Virus record (IMG/VR): IMGVR_UViG_3300020129_000348
Span: 1 to 51,461 of that record
Reading direction: 5' to 3' (one strand)
Source of the DNA: a virus
Length of the DNA: 51,461 bases
The notes under the pieces are model-generated. The model was not told the DNA's origin. It saw only the letters and a list, made by a program, of their open reading frames with translations, and searched no databases. This document shows positions 16,073-39,951 of the stretch, piece after piece. The position numbers and the translations under genes are program-made. The first letter of the stretch is position 1, and every line of letters starts with the position of its first letter.

Positions 16073-17664
16073 AACGTGCAAATAATCTTTTCGGCTTCGG
16101 GAGTAAGACTACTGTTCACAAGCAGCGTGGACAGTCTCGCCGCGACGTTGCGCGAATCGCTGAGTCTGCCGGCCGGAAATCAGGCGACACTCACCAATTT
16201 AAAGCCTGGAGCGTTCGCTATAAATCCTGGGGACCGGAAGCTCTTAAAGAATTCGAGCGGGCCTATCGCAAGGGAGTCGAGACGGGTGAAAGCGTTGCGG
16301 AGCGTAAACGCGTTGAGAAGCGCGGAAAGGAGGTTTCGAGCGAGGTAGCCGAAGACGTAGTGAACGCACTTGCAGGTTTGGGTATGAGCGTGAGAGAAGC
16401 CAAACAGCAAGTCAAGCGTCACGAGCGGGCGGGGGATTCATTCGATACGTTGTTCAAAAAGGTCATGCAGCGGAACCCAATTACAATCCGGCCAACTAAG
16501 ATCAACGTTAACCCTAGCCTATTAGGAACCCGGCATGGACGGGAAAGTGAATACAGGCAGTCCAAAATCTACCAGGCAGGACATTTACTGGGGATCAAAG
16601 ACCGACGCTCTAAACATGCCCATCGTGGCGACCGTTGGCTGATCGATGAAGCGGATCGACGTTTTCCTGATGTTGCTCCCGCATACAGGATCGCCTTCAG
16701 GCAGGGATATAATTTTGGCTTTGAGAAAACTTCGTCTAATCCCAAAGGTGGGAAGTTCGACCGTTGCGTGACGAAGGTTTCCAAGTCCTGCACCGCAAGC
16801 CCCTACGCGGTCTGTCAAAAAACAGTTGGCCGTGGGAATCCCGTTCACATTGCCACGCTCAAGGCCGGAAGTGCCGAAGCGCAAGTAAAGCAAGTCGGTG
16901 CGCACAAGTTCACCGTGGACATCAAAAAGGGGACGTACTCTACGCATCAGGACTTCGATGGCTTGCCAGTTGCGATGGCATGGGCTAGACTCAGGCTCCA
17001 CGAAGTGATGTTCCGTCCAAATCCAAAGACTGGACGTGCGAACCCAATCGGCGCGGCAGAGCGAGTCTACGAAGAATTCCACGGATTCCCGTCAAAGGAA
17101 GTACTTGAGTACACTTCTCAGGAGTACTTCCACTCGGTCACGGTTGGAGTGGGACAGCTCGTGTGTATCGACGTGGTTCTCCCTGAGAACGGTAAGTCAG
17201 TTCCGCTGATCGCAAAAGGCTTCCGCTTCGACCCTGAGAAATTCTTACCGTTGAAGGTCCGTTATTCCAAAGAAGCTGAAGCTGCCGATGCAAGTTGGAT
17301 CTTCGAACCCAAAACTTCGCTTGCCGATGTAGTGCAAGTGACTTGCTCTGAGGACCGCCGTCAGCTTTTCTTCCACGGCGGCGACCAATCGCTACCAACA
17401 GAACGAATCGGACTGACCAAGGCAGACGAGCATGATCACATGCTGATCGGAACGATTGTCAACTTGACCTACCGGACTCGCAAGAGCTTCGAAGGCAAAG
17501 ACGAGAAAGATTTCCACCACGAGTTTGGGAAAGAAGGATCGCGCGGTATATGTCCCGTGTTACTCTACTTTCCTAGATCCAAGAGTATGAAGGTAGCCGG
17601 GGGACGGTACTACATCGCTCCTCCGAGAAGAGACATTGGCGCAAGCCCTGGGATTACAGGATGA
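16069..17664 (+). CDS. Large basic protein of unknown function, CTG start proposed
   Basis: Coding begins at or just after the previous stop; the only start fitting the operon's overlap pattern is CTG at 16069, which forms CTGA with the upstream stop, with GGAG about ten bases before it. The next in-frame ATG (16384) would discard a plausible helical region. The product has 531 residues: a basic helical N-terminal part with RRDVARIAESAGRKSG, a central segment KFDRCVTKVSKSCTASPYAVC, a phrase I associate with phage proteins, and a beta-rich C-terminal half. It may be a multi-domain virion or DNA-handling protein. The start is uncertain. Confidence 0.5.
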   Translation: MKRANNLFGFGSKTTVHKQRGQSRRDVARIAESAGRKSGDTHQFKAWSVRYKSWGPEALKEFERAYRKGVETGESVAERKRVEKRGKEVSSEVAEDVVNALAGLGMSVREAKQQVKRHERAGDSFDTLFKKVMQRNPITIRPTKINVNPSLLGTRHGRESEYRQSKIYQAGHLLGIKDRRSKHAHRGDRWLIDEADRRFPDVAPAYRIAFRQGYNFGFEKTSSNPKGGKFDRCVTKVSKSCTASPYAVCQKTVGRGNPVHIATLKAGSAEAQVKQVGAHKFTVDIKKGTYSTHQDFDGLPVAMAWARLRLHEVMFRPNPKTGRANPIGAAERVYEEFHGFPSKEVLEYTSQEYFHSVTVGVGQLVCIDVVLPENGKSVPLIAKGFRFDPEKFLPLKVRYSKEAEAADASWIFEPKTSLADVVQVTCSEDRRQLFFHGGDQSLPTERIGLTKADEHDHMLIGTIVNLTYRTRKSFEGKDEKDFHHEFGKEGSRGICPVLLYFPRSKSMKVAGGRYYIAPPRRDIGASPGITG

Positions 17665-18791
17665 GATTCAACTTTTACAGCCATCCGACATTCGAGCCGT
17701 GGGACTGGACTAATCCTGACCGCGTTGGGATTGGAGGATCAGAGACATCGCATATTGAAATGGCGCGCCGGCTTGCGGCCCGTGGTCATGTTGTTACATC
17801 ATGGGCGCCAATACCGGAATACCGTTCAGGCGTCAATGAAGGCGTGTTGTGGCTGCATTCCCAGTTCGCTTCCGACCGTGGACACTTCAGCGATGAGAGT
17901 GTTTACTCAGATGGAATATGGGTCATCTATCGTCAACCTGCCGTGATCGACGAGATTTTAACTGACCGTCCAATCTGGTTAGTCTGCCAAGACGTAGACT
18001 ACGTTCGCCCAGAGAATAATCTGACGCCAGAGCGGTGCGCCAAGCTCACACGCATCATCGCGTTGTGCGAAACGCACGCTCAATACTTGCGCAATCGCTA
18101 TCCCTACACGGCGGATAAAGTATTCGTCTCGTCGAACGGCATCAAGAGTGAACTAATCTCTCAGCTTCTCGAGAATCCACCCGAGCGCAATCTGCGACGT
18201 TTGATGTACGCCAGCTCCCCAGATCGAGGAATGGAATACCTGCTCTCCATTTTCCCAAGGGCAAAGGAAATTGTTCCGGACCTGGAACTCCACGTGTTCT
18301 ACGGCTTCGACAACATCGACAAGGTAGTGAAGCACTACGGCGAGGATTCGCGCGTCGGACAAAACACAAGACGGCTGAAAGAACTCCTCAATCAACCCGG
18401 CGTCACATGGCATGGACGCACCGGACAACCCGTACTCCTGCAGGAGTGGCTCAAATCGGGAATCTGGTGCCATCCGTCGAACTTCACCGAAACATCGTGT
18501 ATCACGTGCATGGACGCGCAAGCCTGTGGAGCAATCCCGATCACCTGTCCAACCTGGGCGGTGTCTGAGAACGTAAAGCATGGCGTCTTTATCGACGGCA
18601 ACTTGAAAAACGAAGTGGTTCGATCTCGTTACGTGCTGGAACTCATCCGGATGGCGCTCGACCCTCAGAGACAAGAATCAATCCGCCAAGAGATGATGCC
18701 CTGGGCGCTGGAAGCATTCGGCTGGGAACTGTTCGTCGATCAGTGGATTGGTTGGGCGCGTCACGACATGAAAGTCGAGGTCGCGGCATGA
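17661..18791 (+). CDS. GT-B glycosyltransferase (GT4-like)
   Basis: The 376-residue protein overlaps the upstream gene by ATGA. It has the GT4 layout: an N-terminal acceptor domain with GIGGSETSHIEMARRLAARGH, a central SNGIKSELI, and the donor-binding motif with an E-x7-D/E pattern in NFTETSCITCMDAQACGAIP near residues 273-292. It should transfer a sugar from a nucleotide sugar. It heads a three-gene block with a methyltransferase and a second glycosyltransferase, which suggests glycosylation of a virion or envelope component. Confidence 0.8.
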   Translation: MRFNFYSHPTFEPWDWTNPDRVGIGGSETSHIEMARRLAARGHVVTSWAPIPEYRSGVNEGVLWLHSQFASDRGHFSDESVYSDGIWVIYRQPAVIDEILTDRPIWLVCQDVDYVRPENNLTPERCAKLTRIIALCETHAQYLRNRYPYTADKVFVSSNGIKSELISQLLENPPERNLRRLMYASSPDRGMEYLLSIFPRAKEIVPDLELHVFYGFDNIDKVVKHYGEDSRVGQNTRRLKELLNQPGVTWHGRTGQPVLLQEWLKSGIWCHPSNFTETSCITCMDAQACGAIPITCPTWAVSENVKHGVFIDGNLKNEVVRSRYVLELIRMALDPQRQESIRQEMMPWALEAFGWELFVDQWIGWARHDMKVEVAA

Positions 18792-20523: not shown

Positions 20524-20573
20524 AGGTCTTTGAATTGAAGTTTGCTTCGGAGTAATTACCCGGAGCGTAAAAC

Positions 20574-20652
20574 CAGAAAGCGTCCTTCGCGAAGGGGGCC
20601 GTTGGCAGAAATCCTCACGGATTTTCCGCTGGCTGCCCCCTTTCGCTTTCTG
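20574..20652 (+). promoter_or_regulatory. Multibranched leader RNA structure
   Basis: A closing stem of nine base pairs (CAGAAAGCG at 20574 with CGCTTTCTG at 20644) encloses two further stems: CCTT/AAGG around a CGCG loop, and GGGGGC (20594) with GCCCCC (20635), itself topped by AAATCC/GGATTT with a TCAC loop. The third stem shares G residues with the second. No T-run follows; a Shine-Dalgarno AAGGAGA and the ATG of the next gene do. It is therefore more likely a leader that protects or regulates the downstream virion mRNA than a terminator. Confidence 0.7.
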
Positions 20653-20664
20653 TAAGGAGATTTG

Positions 20665-21421: not shown

Positions 21422-22114
21422 ATGAATCAGTCACAGCAAATCGCACAAGCAGCCGGTCAACAAGCTCTCGCGCGGATGGCCGATCAAGCGGTCGCAACGC
21501 AAGTCGCGGCGGAAGCAATCACGGCCAAGCAAATGTACATCGTCAACCAATTCCGGGGACAGATCTACATTTCAGACACCCTCGACGTTCAGGACACACC
21601 GGTCTACGACACACTCACGTTCGCGGCCGGCACGACCATCTCACTCACCAACAACATCTGGTTCACCAACGTAGAGCAAGGAAGCGGCAAATCCTTGGCT
21701 CAAACGAACATGACCCAGAACGGAAAACTCGACGCGCCGGAAGCAATCGCAGTTCTCGGCGTCCGAGTCGGCATCAACGAAGAAGCTCTTCGCTCGGATC
21801 TGACCACTCTTTTCAACGGCTGGGCCTATCAGCTCTCCCTGGGAAAGAAGCCGTATCAGCTTGCGAACCTTCGCCACTTCTCGTCCGGTTGGGGACTCTT
21901 CGGAACCACCACCCGCACAAGCGAATCAATTTACACCAACGGCTACCCGTCGCGAGGCTCGATGAACCTTTTGGAAATCAACCTCGTCATCGCAAACCAG
22001 ATGAGTTTCAACGCTCAACTGGTCGGCAACACTTCGCAAGTCGTCTCTTCGTCCGGGCCGGGACTCATTCTGTTGAATGAACTCGTCGGCCTGTATGCGC
22101 GAGGCGTGCAGTAA
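21422..22114 (+). CDS. Putative major virion protein (core copy)
   Basis: The 230-residue protein has an Ala/Gln-rich helical start and then a long beta-rich body (QMYIVNQFRGQIYIS, TPVYDTLTFAAGTTISL). A truncated relative with a Tat signal is encoded at 39206. The gene follows the structured leader and is closed by a strong terminator, as expected for a highly expressed structural protein. Capsid identity is inferred from context; I do not recognise the fold from sequence. Confidence 0.55.
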   Translation: MNQSQQIAQAAGQQALARMADQAVATQVAAEAITAKQMYIVNQFRGQIYISDTLDVQDTPVYDTLTFAAGTTISLTNNIWFTNVEQGSGKSLAQTNMTQNGKLDAPEAIAVLGVRVGINEEALRSDLTTLFNGWAYQLSLGKKPYQLANLRHFSSGWGLFGTTTRTSESIYTNGYPSRGSMNLLEINLVIANQMSFNAQLVGNTSQVVSSSGPGLILLNELVGLYARGVQ

Positions 22115-22117
22115 GCT

Positions 22118-22152
22118 ATCGCCGTTTGGCGATGCCCTCGATTCGTTGAGGG
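22118..22152 (+). terminator. Twin hairpins after the virion gene
   Basis: Two short hairpins follow the stop codon directly: ATCGCC/GGCGAT around a GTTT loop, then CCCTC/GAGGG. They have no T-run of their own but lie just before the main terminator and may protect the mRNA 3' end. Confidence 0.5.
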
Positions 22153-22158
22153 ACGCAT

Positions 22159-22210
22159 GGGGCAGGTTACTCTCCTCCGAGTCTGCCCCTGCATTTTACT
22201 TTTTCTTTTT
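22159..22210 (+). terminator. Rho-independent terminator
   Basis: A perfect seven-base stem GGGGCAG/CTGCCCC (22159-22165 with 22183-22189) is followed by a T-rich run of about 20 bases. It ends the transcript carrying the putative major virion protein and lies right against the outer end of the first cassette. Confidence 0.8.
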
Positions 22211-22211
22211 A

Positions 22212-22275
22212 TGTTGGCGCTCTTCTCACTTTCGGTTCGTCGGTTGATCCTCAATGCCGTTCGCGCTATGAGGCA
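22212..22275 (-). repeat. Cassette 3' arm of unit 1
   Basis: The + strand reads TGTTGGCGCTCTTCTC at the outer end and GTTCGCGC at the inner end. On the - strand it encodes the tail HSANGIEDQPTNRK of the unit's gene, whose TGA lies in the arm. An inner CGG/CCG stem is possible. Confidence 0.85.
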
Positions 22276-22717
22276 GGCATTCGAAGATCAACAGGCCATT
22301 CTTGGTTACTCCGCATTGTCGATAACCGGCCTTCAGAAAGCATCGGCCAGGATCGCGCTTGTGGCGTACCTTCTTGGGGTCAACGTAGGTGTACAGGCGT
22401 TCGCCGGGCCAGCGTTGCCATGCAATCTCGTTCGCCAACCGGATGAGTTCGCTCGACCGTCCCGAAGTACTGCCTTCGTTTCGGAAGACCGCACAATTAA
22501 CGCCAACCTGTCCATTGTCGCTTTTGAATTTGCGCCACGCGAACAGCGCACGTGCATCAGGAGTCAGCAGAAGCGTTTTCTCGCCAGGGCCAACCAACTG
22601 GAATATTTTACGGAAGGCACGCGCCGTGTAGTGCCGCTTGAACAGCGACATTGCAGTCGTGTTGCCATCGCGGATCGGAATCCAGCCGACGCCAAACAGA
22701 AATGGCTGTTCACTCAT
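22226..22717 (-). CDS. Conserved phage protein, possible GNAT/Mom-like fold
   Basis: The product has 163 residues from ATG at 22717. It reads IPIRDGNTTAMSLFKRHY, FQLVGPGEKTLLLTPDARAL, FAWRKF, NCAVFRNEG, then AWQRWPGERLYTYVDPKKV and CGVTKNGLLIFECLP. I know this family from many phage genomes as an uncharacterised protein. The terminal part recalls an acetyltransferase fold like that of DNA-modifying Mom proteins, but this is only a suggestion. The C-terminal 14 residues come from the cassette arm. Confidence 0.65.
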   Translation of the reverse strand: MSEQPFLFGVGWIPIRDGNTTAMSLFKRHYTARAFRKIFQLVGPGEKTLLLTPDARALFAWRKFKSDNGQVGVNCAVFRNEGSTSGRSSELIRLANEIAWQRWPGERLYTYVDPKKVRHKRDPGRCFLKAGYRQCGVTKNGLLIFECLPHSANGIEDQPTNRK

Positions 22718-22732
22718 CAGTACCACTCTTGC

Positions 22733-22788
22733 CCAGCGCACGCACGAAAGCAAGGTCCGTTTAGCACAGTACTGAGACAAGCGCCAAC
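22733..22788 (-). repeat. Cassette 5' arm of unit 1
   Basis: The + strand reads CCAGCGCACGCACG to GACAAGCGCCAACGAC. This subtype is shared almost exactly with the 5' arm of unit 2 (23941). The inner end lacks the AAATGAGGCA leader of most 5' arms. Confidence 0.75.
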
Positions 22789-22807
22789 GACATAAAGAGG
22801 AACCTAA

Positions 22808-23257
22808 ATGCAATACACTATGAATCAGTACTCACCAAGCTATCTTCAAGGGGTCAACCCCGCTCCGTCGTCCGAAATCGGATTCGAGCCACGGCCCTAC
22901 ACTTACCTGTACTCACCGGCGAATGGTCAACTCACGGCTTTGCAGGTTGTAAACCAGGACTCGGTTGCAATTCAGACTGACGCTGATTTTCTACTGTTCG
23001 GCTTCTATCTTTCACAGTTCACCGGCGCATTTCAAATCCTGTTGACCGATGCAACCGGCTACCAACTGTTCAGCGGGTTCATGAACTCGGGAGCGATTTC
23101 ACAGTCAAGTGCTGATCCGACTGTATTCAGCCCTTCTCACCCATTTCCAGCAGGAGGAAAGATTCTGATTTCAATCCAGGACCTCTCGAATGCGACGAAC
23201 CCACTTCAGATTGCTTTCGTGGGCGAGAAGATGTTCCGGGTTAAACTCAATCAGTAG
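22808..23257 (+). CDS. Beta-rich putative virion protein
   Basis: The 149-residue protein starts at ATG after AGAGGAACCTAA; a second ATG six codons on is possible. It has no signal peptide or membrane helix. The composition is Ser/Gln/Phe-rich with alternating strands (DFLLFGFYLSQFTGAFQILL, KILISIQDLS). It stands between cassettes 1 and 2, in line with other virion-type genes. A minor capsid or spike role is inferred from position only. Confidence 0.5.
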   Translation: MQYTMNQYSPSYLQGVNPAPSSEIGFEPRPYTYLYSPANGQLTALQVVNQDSVAIQTDADFLLFGFYLSQFTGAFQILLTDATGYQLFSGFMNSGAISQSSADPTVFSPSHPFPAGGKILISIQDLSNATNPLQIAFVGEKMFRVKLNQ

Positions 23258-23264
23258 GCTTTTA

Positions 23265-23326
23265 TGTTGGCGCTCTTCTCAAGTGCGGTTCGTTGGCTGC
23301 GGATTCTCGGCGTTCGCGCTCTGAAG
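23265..23326 (-). repeat. Cassette 3' arm of unit 2
   Basis: Outer TGTTGGCGCTCTTCTC, inner GCGTTCGCGCTCTGAAG. On the - strand it encodes the tail LQSANAENPQPTNRT. It starts a few bases after the TAG of the + gene at 22808. Confidence 0.85.
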
Positions 23327-23926
23327 CACGAATTCTTTACAGTCGCACGGGACACATGGAGCATTTGTATCATGGATGCCGTGGCCTTTTCTGCCGCTGC
23401 AAAGCTGGCTATTGGCAGGATGATGGATGTACCATGGATGCCCGCATTGACAGAGTTCACTCCAGAGACGTTGCCTTTCAGCACGCACGCTATGAAACTG
23501 GCGTTCCACTGCGCGGATGATTGCATATCGACAATGGTTGCAAATATCGTCCGCTTGCCTCAACGCCGGGTTGCTTTCCATCAGCGCGTGTGCGCAATCG
23601 CCGTGAAAATGAAGGCCAGTCAGATCAGTGATAGCTGCGGCGAAGTTTTTGTACGAGATCTGCCGGGCCGTCGCGGCGGCTTCCCAAGAATTCTGCTGAA
23701 GTATCAAGTCGCGGCACGCCGCGCAGATGTCTCCTTGTTTTTCACACAGCACCCTAGAACAATTGTTGCAGTAGTAACCGCCAAGGGCATGGCGCACAGC
23801 TTCAGGGAGTTTTTGGTCATCAATCCGCTGTTTGAGTGTGCTGATCATCCGAGATGTCATCCGACGCGTATCAAGGATTCGCTGGTCGAGATCATACAGC
23901 CGCTCTTCAAGCTCTTCTGGGGTCAT
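23279..23926 (-). CDS. Multi-zinc-ribbon protein (cargo of unit 2)
   Basis: The product has 215 residues from ATG at 23926, with an N-terminal coiled-coil-like region (EELEERLYDLDQRI). Four or five CxxC-type knuckles follow (YCNNCSRVLC, ICAACRD, ICNHCRY, CQCGHPWYIH and CVPCDC), so it probably binds several zinc ions and may contact nucleic acid or protein. The last residues are encoded by the cassette arm. No specific family is recognised. Confidence 0.6.
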   Translation of the reverse strand: MTPEELEERLYDLDQRILDTRRMTSRMISTLKQRIDDQKLPEAVRHALGGYYCNNCSRVLCEKQGDICAACRDLILQQNSWEAAATARQISYKNFAAAITDLTGLHFHGDCAHALMESNPALRQADDICNHCRYAIIRAVERQFHSVRAERQRLWSELCQCGHPWYIHHPANSQLCSGRKGHGIHDTNAPCVPCDCKEFVLQSANAENPQPTNRT

Positions 23927-23940
23927 GCCTTGCACTGTAG

Positions 23941-23997
23941 CCCAGCGCGCGCACGGACGCAAGGCCCAGTCAGCCTAGTACTGAGACAAGCGCCAAC
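23941..23997 (-). repeat. Cassette 5' arm of unit 2
   Basis: CCCAGCGCGCGCACGG to ACAAGCGCCAAC on the + strand. It shares its last 24 bases almost identically with the 5' arm of unit 1, which suggests that the two units share a recent origin or were copied from each other. Confidence 0.75.
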
Positions 23998-24008
23998 GAC
24001 AAATTAAA

Positions 24009-25190
24009 ATGCCCCAACTCTATACAGTACCGCCAGGCTACTACGACCTACCCTTCAGTTGGATCTACGAAGGAGCAGACTTAACAGACGGATCAAACGT
24101 GCTGAACCAAGTCGTACCAATCCTCGGCGGCTATGGGGATTTTGTACTCCGTCGAATTGTAGGAGCGGATACGATTGTAAATCCAAGCGGAGGAAAAATT
24201 CAGGTCCGGGACCGATCGTTGAACTACATCCAGTCGGATCCTCTGTTCGCACAATGCGCTCCCGACATTGCAATCGCGCCGGAACTGTTCTATCCCGAAA
24301 ACGGCGGCATTCGCTTCGACCTCTACAAGGTACTTCGAGAAACCGGCTTCGTAATCCCCGGCGCACCGGCAATCTACTCCCAGCTTTGCTTTCAAGGTGC
24401 GCGGCGGCTCAAGGGGGTCTACCCATTCAAGCAAACCTACGACCGGTACAATCCAAAGACCTTCGCTTACGTGACTTCATTCACCTTGACGAATCCATTT
24501 CTCCCGCCAGACGGGTTGAATGGAACGATCACGCCAATCTTTCAGAAAGTGACAGACTACGACTTCGAGTTGCTTGAGTTGCGGCTCGTTTACACCACGG
24601 CTGCAAGCGTAACTGTGTCTGACGGCCTCTTAGTCCCAGATGGCACCGTATGGGGCTTCAACACGCCAGGAACGTCGGGAAACGGATCTACGCTGACCAT
24701 TACGGGAGGACCAGCACTAAATCAAGTCTTGACCTTCACTGTGACAGGTACAAACATTGCAGTTCAGCTTGCGACCGATGGAGGAGGACTGGTAACGACA
24801 GACATTGCAACCTTGGTCGCCGCGGCGAATGCAAATCCGGCCGTCCATGCTCTCGTTACGGTGAGCGGTTTCGGAGCAGTCAATGGAACACTCGCCCCAA
24901 CGACAGGAGGATTACCCGTTGCTTTCGCCGGCGGTGGAGTAGTTCCAACCAATGCGAGCTCAGCCAAACTTTTCATTTACGACGCCCACAATCACCCCAT
25001 TTCAAACGTGCTTGGACTTGACCAGTTCTTTAATCGTATTCAGTTCGGAGGATTTCAAAACGGAGCCTTCGTCCCAACGCTTCTGTATCCCAAAGATCAT
25101 CAGATCCGGGTTGACGTGCAGAGTCTTACTTATGGAGTGCCGCTTGGATTGACGTTCAACTGGATTGGCAAGCAGAGGATTCCGTGCTGA
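24009..25190 (+). CDS. Large beta-rich putative virion protein
   Basis: The 393-residue protein starts 12 bases after the unit 2 arm and lacks a clear Shine-Dalgarno site. The N-terminal 205 residues (YDLPFSWIYEGADLTDGS, GGKIQVRDRSLNYIQSD, FDLYKVLRETGFVIPG) look like a folded capsid-type domain. Residues about 205-315 are Gly/Thr/Val-rich and resemble an inserted Ig-like domain, after which the first domain resumes (AKLFIYDAHNHPISN, HQIRVDVQSLTYG). Such decorated barrels occur in capsid and spike proteins. Identity is inferred. Confidence 0.5.
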   Translation: MPQLYTVPPGYYDLPFSWIYEGADLTDGSNVLNQVVPILGGYGDFVLRRIVGADTIVNPSGGKIQVRDRSLNYIQSDPLFAQCAPDIAIAPELFYPENGGIRFDLYKVLRETGFVIPGAPAIYSQLCFQGARRLKGVYPFKQTYDRYNPKTFAYVTSFTLTNPFLPPDGLNGTITPIFQKVTDYDFELLELRLVYTTAASVTVSDGLLVPDGTVWGFNTPGTSGNGSTLTITGGPALNQVLTFTVTGTNIAVQLATDGGGLVTTDIATLVAAANANPAVHALVTVSGFGAVNGTLAPTTGGLPVAFAGGGVVPTNASSAKLFIYDAHNHPISNVLGLDQFFNRIQFGGFQNGAFVPTLLYPKDHQIRVDVQSLTYGVPLGLTFNWIGKQRIPC

Positions 25191-25195
25191 TACTT

Positions 25196-25630
25196 CTATC
25201 TTATGTGTTGGCGCTCTTCTCGGGGTTCTCGAACGGTCCTGACCTTTCGAGGTTTCGCGCTCTGAGCTTTCAACCCGATCAGATGCTCGTGCATTTGTTC
25301 GAGCTCGGCGAACCGCATACACTTCTGGCAGTGAAGATCACAGCGTGGGTACTCGCAGAGCACCAGGCGCTTGACGAGAATTGGAAGGCCCAGGTAGCGG
25401 ATTGTGAAATGCCGTCCCTGCTTCGTCTCAATCAACACCGCATCGGGATCGTCGCTTCGGATATCGATCTTCGAAACCGTGTAGAGCGTTCCGTCTTTCT
25501 TCCCGTCTGGCCGGATGATGTCGTTCAGCGCAAGATCAAGCGGATGGATGATGGTCCAGTCCCGATGCATCCGCTGACACAGGCCGGTAGACGGATCGCC
25601 GCAGAAGGTGCAAATGCTGGCCGGGTCCAT
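25196..25630 (-). CDS. Zinc-ribbon protein (cargo of unit 3)
   Basis: The 144-residue protein has CTFC near residue 7, a Cys at about 18, and CDLHCQKC near residue 97, which suggest zinc binding; the middle is beta-rich (GRHFTIRYLGLPILVKRL). The reading frame runs through the cassette arm in a different frame from most cargo genes and ends REERQHIR. It is followed upstream by another small Cys protein, with a three-base gap. Confidence 0.55.
   Translation of the reverse strand: MDPASICTFCGDPSTGLCQRMHRDWTIIHPLDLALNDIIRPDGKKDGTLYTVSKIDIRSDDPDAVLIETKQGRHFTIRYLGLPILVKRLVLCEYPRCDLHCQKCMRFAELEQMHEHLIGLKAQSAKPRKVRTVREPREERQHIR
25206..25266 (-). repeat. Cassette 3' arm of unit 3
   Basis: Outer TGTTGGCGCTCTTCTC, inner TTTCGCGCTCTGAG. 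It contains a perfect six-base inner stem, CTCGAA with TTCGAG, unrelated in sequence to the inner stems of other arms but in the same place. Confidence 0.85.
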
Positions 25631-25633
25631 AGC

Positions 25634-25963
25634 TTACTTGTCAGGGAACTCAACGTATGCGCCACGGTAGCCCGTTCCGACTTCGCTCCGTGCGCTTCTA
25701 TCCTCACGTTCTTTCCGTGCGCAATTGGGACAGCGGTGATTTGGTCCGAATTGATCCGTGGTTTCCCAGCCAACTTTCATGGCGGCCGCGTCAGCTTCTT
25801 CACGGCTAGAGAACAGCGCGATCGGCGAGTCCTTTTCATTCGGCAGTGGAATCTTCATACCGCTCGAAACAACTACGACGCCATTGGTCAACAGCGGCGC
25901 ATAGGGCTTCCCCTTGCCATCCATGAACCGCTGGCAGCCACAACACAAGACTGCGACTTTCAT
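25634..25963 (-). CDS. Small Cys-motif protein (cargo of unit 3)
   Basis: The product has 109 residues; the start at ATG 25963 is chosen for GGAAGG just upstream. It has LCCGCQRF near residue 7 and HRCPNCARKERED near residue 75, together forming one zinc ribbon. It is a typical small phage accessory protein without an assigned function. Confidence 0.55.
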   Translation of the reverse strand: MKVAVLCCGCQRFMDGKGKPYAPLLTNGVVVVSSGMKIPLPNEKDSPIALFSSREEADAAAMKVGWETTDQFGPNHRCPNCARKEREDRSARSEVGTGYRGAYVEFPDK

Positions 25964-26021
25964 GCCTTCCAGCATCCCCCATCGTCCATCGCGGCGCAAG
26001 GGACCTCAGTACCAGTACCCG

Positions 26022-26077
26022 TAGGGCGAACGCTGGAAAACCAGTACTCCCGAGCCACAGTCGAGAAGAGCCTCAAC
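26022..26077 (-). repeat. Cassette 5' arm of unit 3
   Basis: GTAGGGCGAACGCTGG to GAGAAGAGCCTCAAC. The terminal pairing is kept with one wobble (GGGC with GCCT), and an inner CTGG/CCAG hairpin with an AAAA loop is present. Confidence 0.75.
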
Positions 26078-26079
26078 GT

Positions 26080-26361
26080 ATGAACGGCACAGAAAAACTG
26101 GTATTTGTAATCTGCCAGGTCTGTACAAAGAACTCACCTCGAATAAACAAGTGCGCATCCTGCTACCATTACGAAGAGCGGAAGGAGACGAGACCGACTG
26201 TGAAATGCACGTTCTGTTCATTTGAGAATCCGATACCTCCGTTTTCAGGGATGTGTTTGAAGTGTGGAGCGGGTGTTTCTTTTTCGGTTGGCGCTCCTCT
26301 CGTCAATCTCTCATCGGTAGCAGCACCTTGCGTTCGCGCAAATGAGGCGCTGAATGTTTGA
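26080..26361 (+). CDS. Small zinc-ribbon protein reading into a cassette arm
   Basis: The 93-residue protein starts three bases after the unit 3 arm. Four Cys pairs (ICQVC, KCASC, KCTFC, KCGAG with MCLK) suggest two zinc ribbons. From about residue 68 the frame enters the 5' arm of unit 4 and ends in arm sequence (CVRANEALNV). The natural end has probably been replaced by the arm. Confidence 0.5.
   Translation: MNGTEKLVFVICQVCTKNSPRINKCASCYHYEERKETRPTVKCTFCSFENPIPPFSGMCLKCGAGVSFSVGAPLVNLSSVAAPCVRANEALNV
26286..26348 (+). repeat. Cassette 5' arm of unit 4
   Basis: GGTTGGCGCTCCTCTC at the outer end and GCGTTCGCGCAAATGAGGC at the inner end. GAGG lies six bases before the ATG of the first cargo gene, so the arm supplies the ribosome-binding site. 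Confidence 0.85.
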
Positions 26362-26617
26362 CAACCGGCCGCCTCGTAAAGATTTGAGCAGTCCAGAATG
26401 CATCGTTCTGCTGTCAGGCATCGCCGAGGGTATTCTACCGATGACACAGGACGCCAAGACGCTCAGGGAAGCCTTTGCATTTATCGCCAGTGCGGATCTC
26501 TTGTGGGAAGCTTTTGAGCTAAAGCGTCAAGCTGCGGAAGCTGCACTGAAAACAGTTGATCCGCAGATTCTCCGTAACATACTTGGCATTGTTGACGACA
26601 AAGGGCGGGCGCAATGA
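26354..26617 (+). CDS. Small helical protein (cargo of unit 4)
   Basis: The 87-residue protein starts at ATG served by GAGG in the cassette arm. It is largely helical (LREAFAFIASADLLWEAFEL, QAAEAALKTVD). No motif is recognised. It overlaps the next gene by ATGA. Confidence 0.5.
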   Translation: MFDNRPPRKDLSSPECIVLLSGIAEGILPMTQDAKTLREAFAFIASADLLWEAFELKRQAAEAALKTVDPQILRNILGIVDDKGRAQ

Positions 26618-26898
26618 CGAAGGCCCAGCGAGAAGCCCATAAAAAACAGAAGCCGCGTAAACGCTTTAGCAAACTGAAGCCGCCTAAAGGATACCGACGG
26701 AACCAGCCGATCGCCGGGCTTCTTTCCGAAGGCCAACTGATCGACCTCGCGTTCAGTCACATGTGCGCACAATTCATTACGGACTTGCTGCCAACCGAAA
26801 CGAAGCGCGATTTGCTTCAGAGGGCGAACGCTGGAAAGCTTGTGGCCGTAGTCGATAGCGGAGAAGAGCCCCAACAACAAAAAGAGACGATTCAATGA
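26614..26898 (+). CDS. Small basic protein with arm-encoded tail (cargo of unit 4)
   Basis: The 94-residue protein has a basic N terminus (KAQREAHKKQKPRKRF) and a helical middle. The last 28 residues (LQRANAG onward, then SGEEPQQQK) are encoded by the 3' arm. Its stop overlaps the start of the virion-type gene at 26895. Confidence 0.5.
   Translation: MTKAQREAHKKQKPRKRFSKLKPPKGYRRNQPIAGLLSEGQLIDLAFSHMCAQFITDLLPTETKRDLLQRANAGKLVAVVDSGEEPQQQKETIQ
26815..26875 (+). repeat. Cassette 3' arm of unit 4
   Basis: CTTCAGAGGGCGAACGC to GAGAAGAGCCCCAAC. GGGC pairs with GCCC; an inner GCT/AGC stem replaces the GCGG/CCGC stem found at the same place in related arms. Confidence 0.9.
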
Positions 26899-27386
26899 AC
26901 CCCTCCCTACCCAACTATCCAATCATCGACGGCTTTCTATTGGATACAACGCTCCGTTGTAACCTGACCTTCAAATCTTTAGCTCTAGCAAACTACGAAG
27001 CACTTCGAAGAGCAGGGGCGTATCGTTCTAAAATGTGGACAGTTCCAACCGATCCGGCGAACGTCTCAATTCCAGCCCGTGATGCGTTTGAGTATCAGTG
27101 CTTTCTACCGCCTGGTTCCGCAGTGTGGGGCTACATCTTCAACGCACCGCAAAATCAGTTCTCATTTCAAGTCAAGGACGCCTGTACCGACGTGCCGATC
27201 TGGAGTGAGCCGATAGTATCAACTGGGCAGCGGCGCAAGCAACAGCGGCTCTCTAAGCTTCTTGTAGTGGGGAATCCTGGATTGCTCTCGGTCGAGATTT
27301 GCAACTTGACATCGAATGCACAAACTGGGATTCAGTTGATACTGTGTGGCGGGATTCCTGTTGAGCCGGGAGTCTGTTCGTCATGA
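26895..27386 (+). CDS. Beta-rich putative virion protein
   Basis: The 163-residue protein has no signal or membrane segment. It has a balanced beta composition (FLLDTTLRCNLTFKSLALAN, GSAVWGYIFNAPQNQFSFQV, GLLSVEICNLTSNAQTGIQL), like a single beta-barrel protein. It continues the series of virion-type genes that the cassettes separate. Identity is not established. Confidence 0.5.
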   Translation: MNPSLPNYPIIDGFLLDTTLRCNLTFKSLALANYEALRRAGAYRSKMWTVPTDPANVSIPARDAFEYQCFLPPGSAVWGYIFNAPQNQFSFQVKDACTDVPIWSEPIVSTGQRRKQQRLSKLLVVGNPGLLSVEICNLTSNAQTGIQLILCGGIPVEPGVCSS

Positions 27387-27589
27387 ACCGGCCAGAGTTC
27401 AAGTTTGACGAACGCAGTCTAGTGCCCGTATCCGCCATCAGTAAACAGGGATACGTTTTCGTTGAGGTTCGGGGAGGGCTGATTGTGATGCCATCGCTTC
27501 GGAGGGCGCACGCGGAAACTCGCAAGCCGTCGCTTAGCGCCGAGAAAAGCCCCAACAAAAAAACAGGAGACTCTACATGCGGAGTCTAG
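27383..27589 (+). CDS. Short protein with arm-encoded tail
   Basis: The 68-residue protein starts with ATGA overlap. About 38 residues precede the arm (VPVSAISKQGYVFVEVRGG); the tail RRAHAETRKPSLSAEKSPNK is arm-encoded. It overlaps the start of the next gene by 13 bases. No 5' arm is seen, so this interval lies between two 3' arms of like orientation. Confidence 0.45.
   Translation: MNRPEFKFDERSLVPVSAISKQGYVFVEVRGGLIVMPSLRRAHAETRKPSLSAEKSPNKKTGDSTCGV
27497..27556 (+). repeat. Cassette 3' arm (solo)
   Basis: CTTCGGAGGGCGCACGCGG to GAGAAAAGCCCCAAC. GGGC/GCCC pairing is kept; the inner stem GCGG/CCGT uses one wobble. The same-orientation arm before it is at 26815. Confidence 0.85.
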
Positions 27590-28332
27590 GAGAACTTCTA
27601 AGAACACCCTTACCAGACTGCACTAAGAACGGAGATCAATCTGTAAAGCAGGGCGGACCATACGGTATTCCGCCTGGAAGCCCACCCCCAACAGGGCCCT
27701 GGATGCGATCTCCAATCATCCCCGACTCCTGGTTACCCGATGTCCTAAAACGAATTCAACCCGCTCCGGACGTATTCAGAGCAAACCGTTGGGACCTGGA
27801 ACTCCTCGGAGAAGCGGACATCTGGAACTACGTCGCATCCCATGGCGGAATTCAAACGTGCTGTCAAATTCCAGACCTCGGAGCTCCAATCTGGAATCAA
27901 CCGCCCTGGCAGGCAATGCCGTCGCAAGGAAAAGAACTCAATCTCTTTTTCTCGCAACCGACGAACACGATTAGTGGCGCACCAGGTCCGTTCGACGGAA
28001 CCGATACGGTAATTGGTCAGTACCGCTGTCCGATCGGTTGGGACGCGGCAATCAGCAAGGTTGTATTCGGATTCACCGGAAACGGATTCGACGATTTCAG
28101 CGGGAACTTATTCTGGCGCCTGATGGTCGGCAAACGATTTGTGAAGAACCTCGGGAACGTACAGAACACTTTCGGATCCCTACAGACGGCGCTACTCGTC
28201 CCCGGCCGGGCGACGGCTCAGGTGATTAGCGGGCAGACAATTACAATTTTAGCGGCAATTCCAAACGGAAGCCCTGTCAACGGCGGACGTGTAACGGCAG
28301 CGGTATTGGGTTGGGAATACCCTCGCCGTTAG
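27577..28332 (+). CDS. Beta-rich putative virion protein
   Basis: The 251-residue protein starts at ATG seven bases after AGGAGA. A Pro-rich N-terminal region of about 110 residues is followed by a beta-rich domain (VIGQYRCPIGWDAAISKVVF, NLFWRLMVGKRFVKNL, QVISGQTITILAAIPNGSP) that could be a beta barrel. It is the last of the virion-type series (21422, 22808, 24009, 26895, 27577). A capsid or vertex role is inferred. Confidence 0.5.
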   Translation: MRSLGELLRTPLPDCTKNGDQSVKQGGPYGIPPGSPPPTGPWMRSPIIPDSWLPDVLKRIQPAPDVFRANRWDLELLGEADIWNYVASHGGIQTCCQIPDLGAPIWNQPPWQAMPSQGKELNLFFSQPTNTISGAPGPFDGTDTVIGQYRCPIGWDAAISKVVFGFTGNGFDDFSGNLFWRLMVGKRFVKNLGNVQNTFGSLQTALLVPGRATAQVISGQTITILAAIPNGSPVNGGRVTAAVLGWEYPRR

Positions 28333-28408
28333 ATAAATTCAGGCGGCGCGTGGTGAATGCAAGGCGACTCATTCGGACGGGCGATTCAAACGATTGGAAC
28401 CGTGATCA

Positions 28409-28615
28409 CTATGGGTTTTCCGCGTTCGCGCTATTGGCAGGCGCGAGTTGGTGTAATGGCCGTCCTTCAACGTGCGCGTCGTACTCTTCAGCCGCCCATG
28501 CGAGAACACCGTATGCCGTACTGATCCAACCGCATGAGCATTCCACGCTCCAGCCATTGTGCTCTTCGTTCCAGACGACGCCCTTTGCAGCAGCATGTTC
28601 TTGTGTGTTTGTCAT
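28409..28615 (-). CDS. Small zinc-binding-like protein (cargo of unit 5)
   Basis: The 68-residue protein reads HNGWSVECSCGWIS followed by WAAEEYDAHVEG, a short Cys/His pattern I know from small actinophage and phage proteins (CxCG with a later H). The tail NSANAENP is arm-encoded and the stop falls in the remaining half arm. Confidence 0.55.
   Translation of the reverse strand: MTNTQEHAAAKGVVWNEEHNGWSVECSCGWISTAYGVLAWAAEEYDAHVEGRPLHQLAPANSANAENP
28421..28437 (-). repeat. Degenerate cassette 3' half-arm of unit 5
   Basis: Only the inner box (GCGTTCGCGCTATTGG on the + strand) is recognisable; the outer TTGGCGCTCTTCTC part has been lost or replaced. It still encodes the NSANAENP tail of the gene at 28409. 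Confidence 0.5.
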
Positions 28616-28690
28616 GAATCTATTCTACCCCTTTCCTCCTTCTCTTGGAATCCCCCTTCAGTACTAATTTCACGCCCCAAACACCTTAGC

Positions 28691-28749
28691 CCAGAGCGCG
28701 AACCGCTGACAGCCCAACCTGCCACCCACACCTGAGAAGAGCGCCAAAC
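28691..28749 (-). repeat. Cassette 5' arm of unit 5
   Basis: CCAGAGCGCGAACCGC to GAGAAGAGCGCCAAAC, followed by an A-rich run. The terminal GCGC/GCGC pairing is kept. Confidence 0.8.
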
Positions 28750-28809
28750 GACAAAAAACTAAAGCAACTGACCTTAGCACTGTGGTACTGTATGTCCGAA
28801 GGAGATAAC

Positions 28810-29382
28810 ATGTTTGACTTTTCAACCCTGGCCGCAGATCAGCCAAGATTCAATCTCTCGCTCGATAAAGCCCGCAAGATCGCCATGATCTACGGAGTCT
28901 TGGGATTCGGGCATCCCCGCCTGTTTGCGGAAGCGAAACCGGGAGCCATGCCGCCCGGTGTCCTGCTGATCCCGGAAAGGGCGCAGCAGGGCGACGATTC
29001 CCGCTGGCCCGACCGCGTAGATGTAGACACGACCGGAAATGACTTAGTTACGATGTTCGCCGGCGACGATCCTGGCGACAACGCCATGTTCTTGATGGTC
29101 AGCGTTGACGGCTGTGACGATTTCTTCACATGCGCCCCCTGGTACACGGCCCTGACCGATCCGAAACGGGAATCGCAACGGCTCCAGCTTTTGACCGCAA
29201 TGAAGCACGAGGTCGAGATCAGCACACAGCAGGCGTGGTCTGAAGCGGATGAAGCCGTCCTTCCGCAAGTCAACTCAATTCTGGGGATTCAGACAACCGG
29301 GAATGTCTCGGCCCACCGGAGTGCTGCACGTCAAGCACCTGAAGTGCCGGCGGATTACCACGGCAAAGCACCCACCGCCTAA
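28810..29382 (+). CDS. Unknown soluble protein
   Basis: The product has 190 residues; ATG 28810 is preferred over 28792 because AAGGAGATAAC precedes it at ideal distance. It is an acidic, mixed alpha/beta protein (KIAMIYGVLGFGHPRLFAEA, NAMFLMVSVDGCDDFFTCAP) with no signal peptide or membrane helix. A weak TACTGT box lies upstream. No family is recognised. Confidence 0.55.
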   Translation: MFDFSTLAADQPRFNLSLDKARKIAMIYGVLGFGHPRLFAEAKPGAMPPGVLLIPERAQQGDDSRWPDRVDVDTTGNDLVTMFAGDDPGDNAMFLMVSVDGCDDFFTCAPWYTALTDPKRESQRLQLLTAMKHEVEISTQQAWSEADEAVLPQVNSILGIQTTGNVSAHRSAARQAPEVPADYHGKAPTA

Positions 29383-31430: not shown

Positions 31431-31480
31431 TACTGAAGTTCCATTGCATTCCTCTCGCTGACGGGTTTAGAATTGCGTTA

Positions 31481-31547
31481 TGTTCTGGCGCTCTTCTCAC
31501 CATCCGTTCGCAGCTTGCGACTTTCAGACGTTCGCGCAAATGAGGCA
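31481..31547 (+). repeat. Cassette 5' arm of unit 6
   Basis: TGTTCTGGCGCTCTTCTC outer and GTTCGCGCAAATGAGGCA inner. An inner CGCA/TGCG stem is present. GAGG serves the GTG start of the ASCH gene. Confidence 0.85.
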
Positions 31548-31550
31548 GTG

Positions 31551-32117
31551 GTGAAAGCTCTCTCGTTGACCCAACCGTGGGCTTCGCTTGTGGCCGTTGG
31601 CGCAAAGAGAATCGAGACGCGATCTTGGCGAACGCCATACCGCGGGGCGTTGGCGATTCACGCAGCGAAGCGTTTCCCGGCAGACGCCCGCGATTTCACC
31701 TACACAAAGATGGCGCGAGAATCTCTCGTGCCGTACTACGCCGAGCCGGATCACTGGCTTGGTGTTACCGACAAACCAACTCAGCTTGACAAAAATCTTC
31801 CTCTCGGTTGTGTTATCGCCACATGCCGCCTGATCTCATGTATTCCGACAAGAGAGATTGAACTCGCTAAGAAGATAGGTGTAGACCAAGCCGTTATCCC
31901 ACTCTGTCCCGATTTCGAGATCACGGAGCAAGAGTACGCCTTTGGCAATTACAGTTTGGGTCGATGGGCCTGGCTTCTCGCTGACATCAAACTACTCCCT
32001 GAACCAATACCAATAAGGGGAGCACGGTCTCTCTGGGAATGGGAGCCTGTTCATAGCGCGAACGGCATACCCTCCAAACCGCCCACCGAACCCGAGAAGA
32101 GCGCCAACGGAAAATGA
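31551..32117 (+). CDS. ASCH-domain protein (cargo of unit 6)
   Basis: The product has 188 residues from GTG, with GAGG supplied by the cassette arm. It reads MKALSLTQPWASLVAVGAKR, then ETRSW and YRGALAIHAAKRF, the core signature of ASCH (PUA-like) domains, with LGCVIATCRLISC and WAWLLADIKLL later. ASCH proteins bind RNA or modified bases. A lysine in GAKRIETRSW is typical. The tail (HSANGIPSKPPTEPEKSANG) is arm-encoded. Confidence 0.8.
   Translation: MKALSLTQPWASLVAVGAKRIETRSWRTPYRGALAIHAAKRFPADARDFTYTKMARESLVPYYAEPDHWLGVTDKPTQLDKNLPLGCVIATCRLISCIPTREIELAKKIGVDQAVIPLCPDFEITEQEYAFGNYSLGRWAWLLADIKLLPEPIPIRGARSLWEWEPVHSANGIPSKPPTEPEKSANGK
32051..32108 (+). repeat. Cassette 3' arm of unit 6
   Basis: TCATAGCGCGAACGG to GAGAAGAGCGCCAAC. 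GCGC/GCGC pairing is kept. It encodes the EKSANGK tail of the ASCH protein and runs into the recombinase start. Confidence 0.85.
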
Positions 32118-32746
32118 AGAAGTGTGCAATCTACATCCGAGTGAGCACACCCAAGAAAGTACCGGGCAAAGCAGCAGGCTCGGAAGTCTACCTGCAAAAT
32201 CCCGCAGTGCAACTAGAACCGTTGAAACAACTGGCCAGCATAATCAACGCGGAAGTATTCAAGGTGTACTCTGACCGGATGAGCGGAGCAAACACGAACC
32301 GGCCAGCTTATCGGGAACTGATGACCGATGCACGGCGCCGCCAGTTCCAAGTAGTAATCGTGTGGCGCTTCGACCGCTGGGCGCGATCGACACAAGAGCT
32401 AATCTCGACTCTCGAAGAATTCCAAGCGTTGGGCATCGACTTCATTTCACAGCAAGAAGCGATTGACACAAGTACGCCCATGGGCAAGTGCCTATTCACT
32501 ATCATTGCAGCCGTCGCGGAGATGGAGAGGCATGCAATCAAGGAACGGATTCGCGCCGGCATGGAGTACGCCCGCAATCATGGAACGAAGTCGGGTAAGG
32601 AAGTGGGGCGACCGAAACGGGTGTTTCGGAGGGATGAGGCGATCGCGCTTCGACAAGAAGGCTTGCCCTTCCGGGAGATCGCACGGCGTCTCAAAGTAGG
32701 GGATGGTACAGTCAGGCGGGCATGCGCCACAATGCTATCGGCGTAA
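32114..32746 (+). CDS. Serine recombinase (resolvase/invertase family)
   Basis: The 210-residue protein carries the complete small serine recombinase layout: the catalytic Ser in YIRVSTP at residue 11, SDRMSGANTNRPAYRELM, VIVWRFDRWARS, an E-helix EMERHAIKERIRAG, and a C-terminal helix-turn-helix (FREIARRLKVGDGTVRRA). Such enzymes resolve or invert DNA between short sites. It starts six bases after the unit 6 arm, overlaps the ASCH stop by ATGA, and is the only recombinase visible here. It is therefore a candidate, unproven, for mobilising the cassettes. Confidence 0.9.
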   Translation: MKKCAIYIRVSTPKKVPGKAAGSEVYLQNPAVQLEPLKQLASIINAEVFKVYSDRMSGANTNRPAYRELMTDARRRQFQVVIVWRFDRWARSTQELISTLEEFQALGIDFISQQEAIDTSTPMGKCLFTIIAAVAEMERHAIKERIRAGMEYARNHGTKSGKEVGRPKRVFRRDEAIALRQEGLPFREIARRLKVGDGTVRRACATMLSA

Positions 32747-36906: not shown

Positions 36907-36913
36907 ATAAATC

Positions 36914-38060: not shown

Positions 38061-38061
38061 G

Positions 38062-39885: not shown

Positions 39886-39890
39886 ATCAG

Positions 39891-39951
39891 CCTCATTTGC
39901 GCGAACGCAAGGTGGGCCTGGCCGCGAGAGATTGCCGAGAGGAGCGCCGAC
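39891..39951 (-). repeat. Cassette 5' arm of unit 8
   Basis: CCTCATTTGCGCGAACGC to GAGAGGAGCGCCGAC on the + strand. On the - strand it ends GCGCAAATGAGG before the GTG start, giving the ribosome-binding site. Confidence 0.85.

Follow-up and report, generated by a model that had tools for sequence, protein, structure and literature searches.

The stretch of DNA analysed here, referred to as the window, is the whole IMG/VR virus record IMGVR_UViG_3300020129_000348 (G000), which comprises 51,461 nucleotides and is classed as linear. Its positions 21422 to 29382 hold a series of plus-strand genes, designated A, B, E, C and D and followed by a gene from 28810, and each of the five junctions between them contains one or two units bounded by inversely oriented sequence arms, or a lone arm. 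An arm of about 60 nt consists of an outer box, about 30 variable nt and an inner box; it is written > on the plus strand and < on the minus strand, so that a unit reads > cargo <. Three families were distinguished: f1, the family of the window (TTTTATGTTGGCGCTCTTCTC-N~30-GCGTTCGCGC), f2 (TTTTGGCCTC-N~32-CGTTCGACCAGGAG), first spotted as the main repeat of record G003, and f3 (GTTGGCGACC-N~30-GGTCGTCCCCCGTGG), present in G011 (IMGVR_UViG_3300021476_000274, positions 617-23815), L078 and L079. Genes appear to be added, swapped or moved at these fences, even amid shell-like genes.

The gene series and its units

The features of the series are as follows (ORF, open reading frame; arm scores are nhmmer bits).
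21422-22114, plus strand: gene A, 230 amino acids (aa), cluster c0, capsid-like by position only
22117-22210, plus strand: three hairpins, then a T-run, after A; RNA fold −41.1 kcal/mol, z −5.2
22207-22276, plus strand: > arm (f1), left arm of the A|B unit, 44.0 bits
22226-22813, minus strand: A|B cargo ORF, cluster c54, homologues in G001, G011 and G005
22730-22790, minus strand: < arm, right arm of the A|B unit, 11.8 bits
22808-23257, plus strand: gene B, cluster c19, found in G000, G003, G005, G006 and G008
23260-23330, plus strand: > arm of the B|E unit, 51.6 bits
23279-23962, minus strand: B|E cargo ORF, 227 aa, open frame only
23936-24002, minus strand: < arm of the B|E unit, 21.0 bits
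24009-25190, plus strand: gene E, cluster c8
25196-25630, minus strand: cargo ORF of the first E|C unit, open frame only
25201-25267, plus strand: > arm of the first E|C unit, 39.1 bits
25634-25999, minus strand: cargo ORF of the first E|C unit, weak homologue (28% identity to G003_7287_7598, E 5e-10)
26018-26083, minus strand: < arm of the first E|C unit, 31.4 bits
26080-26361, plus strand: ORF between the two E|C units
26281-26347, plus strand: > arm of the second E|C unit, 38.9 bits, ATGAGG ahead of the cargo start
26354-26617 and 26614-26898, plus strand: two overlapping cargo ORFs of the second E|C unit, open frames, no family match
26810-26881, minus strand: < arm of the second E|C unit (GGGGCTC/CGCCC subtype), 51.4 bits
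26895-27386, plus strand: gene C, cluster c18
27492-27562, minus strand: lone < arm at C|D, 42.2 bits, behind a small plus-strand ORF (27383-27589)
27577-28332, plus strand: gene D, cluster c17
28369-28440, plus strand: decayed > arm at D|28810, with only an inner box near 28420, by eye
28409-28615, minus strand: cargo ORF at D|28810, open frame only
28686-28748, minus strand: < arm at D|28810, 29.2 bits
28810-29382, plus strand: gene after the series, open frame, AAGGAG ahead of ATG 28810

The original prediction, made from the sequence of the window alone, had placed a unit or an arm at each junction of this series, and consensus and profile searches bear it out at 5 of 5 junctions. It was equally right that several units run antisense to the series, since three units and one part-unit carry minus-strand ORFs; in the second E|C unit and along C|D the ORFs are on the plus strand. 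The resulting gaps measure 693 nt (A|B), 751 nt (B|E) and 1704 nt (E|C). The decayed > arm of D|28810 is not reported by the profile at E < 0.1, and the < arm at 22730-22790 is 84% identical over 69 nt to that at 23933-24001. The true start of the c54 cargo ORF lies probably just inside its < arm. Apart from a weak zf-C2HC5 match of the 23279-23962 ORF, below the Pfam cut-off (E 0.0097), no known domain was found in the cargo tested within the series. Three of the five antisense ORFs, that is those other than 22226-22813 and 25634-25999, have no homologue among the records compared, and their coding status is that of an open frame only.

The hairpins and T-run behind gene A, which a simple terminator scan did not list, may according to the predicted fold end transcription ahead of the first antisense unit. 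Taken together with the translation signals borne by the arms (see below), this means that the antisense genes are not bare insertions into an operon, and the argument that antisense insertion must be costly here is weakened, as the arms may bring ribosome-binding sites to the next gene.

That the series consists of virion genes is plausible but unproven. Cluster c0 of gene A is present in 9 of the 10 records compared, window included, and protein A shares 60-62% identity with its counterparts in G003, G005, G006 and G008 and 60% with that of G011. None of A, B, E, C and D has a PHROG or Pfam match at E <= 0.01, and a PDB sequence search with A and E gave nothing below E 0.2. AlphaFold models of A and E (pLDDT 52.7 and 48.6, from alignments of 10 and 7 rows) were too poor for use; a Foldseek search of the A model against viral structures returned scattered, mostly beta-rich matches with a query TM of at most 0.35 (best 50 of 1196) and was likewise left unused. 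Ten accessory proteins, half of which belong to the series, had no match in PADLOC. The virion reading is favoured by a HerA-type ATPase near E in G003, G005 and G008 (the G008 protein was tested), the kind that tailless viruses use for packaging; a weak tail tape-measure match of another core protein (E 0.0014) counts against tailless viruses.

Some series genes also occur in unusual copies. Gene E is doubled in G005 (36683-39973, 382 + 652 aa) and in G008 (35941-39107, 388 + 616 aa), the copies being separated by a small ORF and arms, and in L073 (12974-17148) gene D is matched three times in tandem. Within the accessory unit 39206-39957 of the window, one stretch of the minus-strand ORF 39206-39535 shares 55-62% identity with residues ~19-78 of protein A, so that part of a series gene is carried here as cargo.

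Placement, families and signals of the arms

Relatives were found by means of the arms and of an alignment of protein A. Scanning IMG/VR with the f1 pattern gave three more records (G001, G002 and G003) and with the f2 pattern six (G004-G009); with the window these form the ten records (G000-G009) to which the counts below refer. An alignment-based search with protein A led to 11 loci. Among the new ones, L068 (G011), L073 (G013) and L074 (G014) hold the series without f1 or f2 arms around it, L070 (G012) and L075 (G015) have f2 arms, and L077 (G016) showed neither series nor arms within the 20 kb scanned. Single-protein scans for close relatives with A and E gave no match, whereas the arm patterns and the A alignment did find relatives. 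Protein A has no match among 50,697 phage records, in which the glycosyltransferase 17661-18791 has distant matches (best 34%), and the window as a whole has no Rfam match. Direct terminal repeats of 171 nt (G001), 123 nt (G002), 99 nt (G003), 127 nt (G004), 138 nt (G007) and ~340 nt (G008) suggest that these records may be complete although they are classed as linear. In GTDB genomes the f1 pattern met one contig of a Terriglobales metagenome-assembled genome (L050, JASHOU010000015.1, 3.2 kb), whose two units lie between or beside homologues of window core genes. This contig, the sole hint of a host, suggests that the host may be an acidobacterium; the viruses form a little-known group from soil, whose hosts are probably bacteria. 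A Curtobacterium contig (L051) that matched the f1 pattern holds no arm by profile, and the match was put down to chance.

Arms were located by consensus and by profile and were counted if the nhmmer match covered more than 35 model positions at E < 0.1, the profiles being built from the same genomes. The f1 alignment contains 102 arms, 15 of 117 box matches having been removed beforehand as doubtful; the f3 profile has 8 seeds, two of them weak (G011 23748 and G013 3650), so that about 6 f3 arms are clear. Genes were called with a simple codon-score script, so starts are imprecise and some small genes were missed.

The profile search yielded 401 arms in the ten records, and these keep to gene ends: for 245 of them the end of a conserved gene is no more than 75 nt away (82 expected), and 21 are located deep within conserved genes (183 expected at random positions). 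An arm stands at 280 of the 538 junctions of called genes (22 of 52 in the window, 55 of 79 in G008). The idea that the sites are strongly targeted therefore holds in so far as arms mark gene boundaries, but the series is not singled out. Furthermore, neighbouring arms are opposite in direction in 292 of 391 cases, compared with a mean of 198 and a maximum of 227 in 2000 shuffles. Genes occur in both resulting kinds of interval, >gene< and <gene>, the series genes B and E being of the latter kind. The distance between the arms of a > < pair is 200-1500 nt in 78 of 147 pairs. A further 26 pairs have a length of at most 200 nt; some of these, in f2 genomes, measure only about 145 nt and contain no gene.

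The arm family cuts across backbone ancestry. All arms of G000, G001 and G002 belong to f1 and nearly all of G003-G009 to f2, with f1 arms five times in G003 and once each in G005 and G008; in G011, f3 is represented by 6 clear arms and a weak one, none of them beyond the first 24 kb. The protein A tree separates lineage I (G000, G003, G005, G006, G008, G011) from lineage II (G001, G002, G004, G007) with a support of 100, the trees of the core proteins c2 and c6 being less clear (long branches). At one junction, c66|c43, the pair is f1 in G002 and f2 in G004. That one arm family dominates each genome is the oddest result, and simple exchange leaves it unexplained.

Many arms carry translation signals. 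Read outward, f2 arms have GAGGCC or GGAGGCC a few bases ahead of many start codons. On this outward face, predicted binding to the anti-Shine-Dalgarno (anti-SD) sequence is stronger before gene starts (−6.99 kcal/mol, n = 98) than after gene ends (−5.72 kcal/mol, n = 100; p 1.5e-7), and on the inward face it is again stronger before starts (p 0.015; n = 44 and 70). In f1 arms the difference points the same way but is not significant (outward p 0.15, inward p 0.06). Nine inner boxes in the window read AAATGAGG; 7 of the 9 point towards the beginning of a cargo frame, called or open, and 2 are ambiguous. The arm 45687> reads AAATGAAGC and faces a gene end. Of the 26 compact > < pairs, 8 were left out, three because they include an f1 arm and five as incomplete or different in type. 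The remaining 18 align as one palindromic module of about 145 nt when turned along the flanking genes; GGAGGC closes 16 of them, mostly a few bases ahead of a start codon. Their consensus folds better in sense (−25.3) than in antisense (−19.5), and each of the 18 modules has a better fold than its 40 shuffled versions have on average (z from −1.8 to −8.6).

A helix formed between the two boxes of an arm was considered as a shared feature. In f1 the two most informative column pairs stand in one antiparallel register, namely L4-R6 (CG 88, GC 11, TA 1, CA 1) and L8-R2 (CT 80, TG 18, AT 2, TT 1). Bases are paired at four positions in 99-100 of 101 arms, but at L8-R2 in 20 and at L7-R3 in none. 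The boxes of one f1 arm pair slightly better with each other than with those of different arms; p is 1e-4 for the > strand and 0.26 for the opposite strand. The boxes of an f2 arm pair no better than those of different arms (p 0.93), and the base after CTC in the outer box is tightly linked with the dinucleotide before CGAC in the inner one (A-TT 167, G-CT 44, C-CC 46 of 289 arms). Given the non-pairing f1 columns and the f2 result, a shared helix was not upheld, and the linkage is read as one of subtypes. In f3 the box pair GCGACC/GGTCGT may form a 6-bp stem inside each arm.

Filled and empty junctions and the movement of genes

The nearest backbone relative of the window is G011, whose protein A is sister to that of the window (support 100/98). 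Its series has the order A-B-E-C and is arm-free, with 173 nt at A|B, 2 nt at B|E and a start/stop overlap at E|C. Since the same order exists without arms and with tight junctions, the units of the window are additions at exact gene boundaries. Thus the claim that the units are extra DNA between series genes is supported, and the arrangement is not a fixed one shared by all relatives. Over all of G011, profile search gave one f1 match (20574-20639, E 0.0012), outside the series; G013 has no arm at E < 0.1 in the 40,000 of 40,894 nt profiled and G014 one partial match in 60,000 of 61,475 nt. In L073 the gaps amount to 43 nt (B|E), an overlap (E|C) and 4 nt (C|D). L074 has 29 nt at B|E, and 816 nt at A|B and 416 nt at C|D without f1 or f2 arms, which means that not every long gap is an arm unit.

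An arm position at A|B is common to the window, G003, G005, G006 and G008, where the gaps of these relatives measure 291-638 nt and contain different cargo or none. Filled and empty states of the same junction are found outside the series as well: c31|c56 measures −4 nt in G003 vs 423 nt with > < in G005, c1|c21 0 nt in G005 vs 505 nt with > < in G008, and c6|c2 −4 nt in G004 vs 886 nt with > < in G008. The junctions c31|c56, c21|c13, c6|c2 and c2|c11 are arm-free with −4 to +10 nt in some relatives and contain one or two arms within 142-886 nt in others. The reverse case exists too. The window genes 12061-12273 and 12270-12719 overlap without arms, and their homologues in L050 (45% and 37% identity) are split by an f1 unit, the second L050 unit coming next, ahead of an ORF that by eye resembles the next gene of the window. 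At c5|c20 a compact arm pair is kept in G003, G006 and G008 (gaps of 147, 112 and 151 nt) and one arm in G005; the same junction has 138 nt without arms in the window, and in G011 the two ORFs are 3 nt apart. The arm-free window sequence (20524-20661) forms by eye a different long hairpin that ends in AAGGAG ahead of the next start.

The cargo gene c54 was found in four genomes and lies between > and < arms in all four, in f1 arms in G000 and G001, in f2 arms in G005 and in f3 arms in G011. Its surroundings are A and B in the window, c7 and c104 in G001, c53 in G005, and c12 and then c53 in G011, which makes three surroundings in all. The window cargo is closer to that of G001 (71% identity; 65% in a second comparison), a member of the other backbone lineage with the same arm family, than to that of G005 (59%; 51% in the second comparison); identity to G011 in the second comparison is 56%. 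The genes that flank it, A and B, have their nearest counterparts within the window's own lineage. Among the accessory genes of the window, the recombinase described below and the genes at 38292 and 48064 are closer to f1 genomes of the other lineage, and those at 45750, 46031, 42189 and 43158 to f2 genomes of the own lineage.

Third place in the series of the window, G011, L073 and L074 belongs to gene E, itself bounded by arms; in G003, G005, G006 and G008 this gene comes last. Judged from these gene orders it is the f2 genomes in which E is relocated; a move in the window was ruled out, as A-B-E-C is also the order in G011, L073 and L074. In general, conserved neighbours are still adjacent in 287 of 301 arm-free comparisons vs 446 of 564 arm-separated ones, counts that take both directions of each genome pair and are not independent. 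For the window against G003, G005 and G008 the values are 10/10, 6/6 and 9/9 without arms vs 3/8, 2/9 and 3/7 across arms. This contrast is supporting evidence, not proof. Strand flips among conserved neighbours number 7 in 357 comparisons, all of them across arms and between distant genomes.

Elsewhere the window contains accessory genes for a MazG-like protein (50450-50872), an ASCH-domain protein (31473-32117) and a PAPS-reductase-like protein (46031-46540), and a collagen-repeat protein (5191-5973). A fused DNA helicase and N6/N4 methyltransferase of 1059 aa (71-3250) has a frame that crosses the < arm 3153-3224, which makes its C-terminus. A direct repeat of 170 nt, 71% alike, lies at 12924-13093 and 13664-13833 in two adjacent ORFs that have a stretch of 59-62 aa in common.

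Module exchange and competing explanations

The reading we favour, to which we give an even chance, is that arms are inversely oriented boundary sites which make genes or small gene groups exchangeable modules. It is preferred because it explains the position and alternation of the arms, the exactly filled or empty junctions, the moved cargo, the moved series gene and the lone arms. What has been shown is that arms stand at gene ends and alternate, that they are present or absent at exact boundaries, that one cargo occurs in several surroundings and a series gene is relocated, that arm families differ at the same junctions, and that f2 ribosome-binding sites are stronger where they face gene starts. 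A module would lie between two inversely oriented sites with either the inner boxes (>gene<, the units) or the outer boxes (<gene>) turned towards it. Like sites would recombine, by double exchange or by fusion and resolution between co-infecting genomes, and thereby insert, swap or invert a module, leaving its neighbours intact, and ribosome-binding sites at both ends would keep it translated. The series itself would then be a succession of modules, with cargo modules lodged at the junctions, and lone arms would be fused modules.

The enzyme that would drive this is the least certain part. The sole candidate found is the following gene.
32114-32746, plus strand: serine recombinase (resolvase/invertase type), PF00239 (E 1.9e-39), starting at the edge of the < arm 32049-32114
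Its best PHROG match is 'DNA invertase' (E 1.2e-49), with a weak match to 'transposase' (E 2e-5). PF00239 occurs in 6 of 16 records (5 of the first 10 and 1 of the 6 further ones); the gene adjoins an arm in the window, G002, G003, G005 and G008 and is 132 nt from an arm in G011. In the recombinase tree G000 and G002 stand apart from G003, G005, G008 and G011 (support 100/99), so that the clades track f1 vs f2/f3, unlike protein A, which joins G000 with G011 and G003/G005/G006/G008 (100). This may point to a recombinase matched to its arms or to a module travelling among genomes with like arms. Tyrosine recombinases (PF00589) were found in none of the ten records.

Several observations weigh against module exchange. 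No crossover has been observed directly. The recombinase is missing from G001, G004 and G007, which bear arms and terminal repeats of 171, 127 and 138 nt; as these genomes are maybe complete, it may be a passenger, and its link with arm families rests on 6 sequences and would also arise from mere travel with the arms. Among 335 conserved genes of at least 100 aa, 210 have an arm at one end or more and just 71 at both, which, with arms at only 280 of 538 junctions, means that many modules would contain several genes. Furthermore, 99 of 391 neighbouring arms do not alternate, the f3 arms of G011 run > > > > > < >, and the spacing of the boxes varies (mostly 40-44 nt in f2 and 41-47 nt in f1), which is loose for a site-specific core. 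Cargo bears the arm family of its host genome, and how it acquires this family is left without explanation. The c54 surroundings of G005 and G011 have c53 in common and are hence related. Finally, the adjacency contrast is confounded by the accessory nature of the arm-rich regions, which undergo rearrangement in any case.

A wider version of module exchange, in which much of the genome consists of plug-in modules with alternating sites that bear ribosome-binding sites, is possible but on balance doubtful. Genes of either strand, those of the series included, could then be put in, shifted or taken out harmlessly, with ribosome-binding sites at both ends. Here a trans-acting factor would keep nearly all sites of a genome in one family, and the family would switch genome-wide (f1, f2, f3) while junctions and cargo stay, defining exchange communities across backbone ancestry. 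About equally tentative is the view that the arms are an RNA device in the first place and mobile only in the second. A > arm at a gene end and a < arm at the next start would fold into a long mRNA hairpin that holds the ribosome-binding site of the next gene, GGAGGCC pairing with GGCCUC, for translational coupling or an RNase III cut; ordinary homologous recombination among the many copies would shuffle genes as a by-product. The 18 compact pairs, one palindromic module with GGAGGC at the end of 16 and a better fold in sense than in antisense, suit this view, as does the other long hairpin at the arm-free c5|c20 junction of the window (20524-20661, by eye). However, arms also bound antisense and plus-strand cargo where no coupling is needed, the same series does without f1 or f2 arms in G011, L073 and L074, and 78 of the 147 > < pairs have 200-1500 nt between their arms.

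It is rather improbable that the units are non-autonomous transposons with terminal inverted repeats of ~60 bp, MITE-like when empty and served by a transposase in trans. Arms of different units are up to 89% complementary, the kinds of cargo are many, and empty ~145-bp forms, ~70-87% alike, are scattered in G005 and G008, all as such elements would have it. Yet there is no target-site duplication, which speaks against ordinary transposition: direct repeats of at least 4 nt at equal distance from both arms flank 16 of 140 units vs 12.6 expected on re-pairing. Insertion is nearly confined to gene boundaries, the same arms bound series genes in the opposite sense, lone arms exist, and a Pfam scan that covered some of the genes brought up no transposase, the weak PHROG match of the recombinase apart. 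Least probable of all is a role of the serine recombinase as a DNA invertase: units would be flipped between their inverted arms, and the outcome would be phase variation of cargo instead of exchange between viruses. A gene of this type adjoining inverted arms, with 'DNA invertase' as best PHROG match, fits such flipping, whereas the mere 7 strand flips in 357 neighbour comparisons, between distant genomes, and the absence of the gene from three arm-bearing records with terminal repeats do not.

Compared with known systems, the arms work like Xer dif modules without being a member of that system. According to a report on these (pdif) modules of Acinetobacter plasmids, genes lie between inversely oriented sites, and C and D modules must alternate; the backbone itself counts as a module, a module without a predicted ORF is reported, one module takes opposite orientations in different plasmids, and decay of sites fuses modules (PMC13141974). 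The sites described here are likewise inversely oriented, alternating as a strong tendency (292 of 391). They differ in their length of ~60 nt and boxes 40-47 nt apart, where Xer sites surround a short spacer. The E. coli dif consensus has 0 matches in the window at up to 3 mismatches, and the conserved arm sequence is unlike dif. The lack of a tyrosine recombinase gene in 10 of 10 records is a weak difference, Xer being a host enzyme. In addition, f2 sites carry ribosome-binding sites, there are at least three sequence families, and the carrier is a virus in which roughly every second gene junction has a site.

MITEs and mobile insertion cassettes have inverted terminal arms and no transposase inside, some units being free of cargo. 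Inverted arms and some empty units are found here too, and no transposase was seen inside units among the proteins scanned, a part of the genes, but the arms described here differ in the lack of target-site duplication, the insertion at gene boundaries, the genome-wide alternation and the solitary arms. Like the REP/BIME elements of bacteria, which have many intergenic copies, often as inverted pairs, the arms lie in many copies between genes and often in inverted pairs; they differ in being longer, in enclosing cargo genes and in reaching up to start and stop codons. Integron cassettes have one attC each, all in one direction, an integrase and folded recombination sites. The f1 arms resemble attC in a possible 4-bp stem with one compensating pair, whereas the inverted alternating sites and the lack of an integrase (PF00589 in 0 of 10 records) set them apart. 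Phage 'linker' sequences at module borders are shared and could guide recombination. Shared sequence at gene borders is also seen here, but the arms are inverted and alternating, and mostly one family occupies all borders of a genome.

The mosaicism of phages is usually attributed to illegitimate or homologous recombination sorted by selection. No description of a virus such as the present one was found in the open-licence PMC literature, and, as far as this literature shows, a change of site family at shared junctions is undescribed in viruses; such a change would call for a concerted process. The genome is seemingly built for gene exchange, with sites at exact gene boundaries that mostly alternate, have translation signals built in and extend through a conserved series of genes. 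It offers a natural case for testing modular evolution site by site, and perhaps a portable gene-exchange system.

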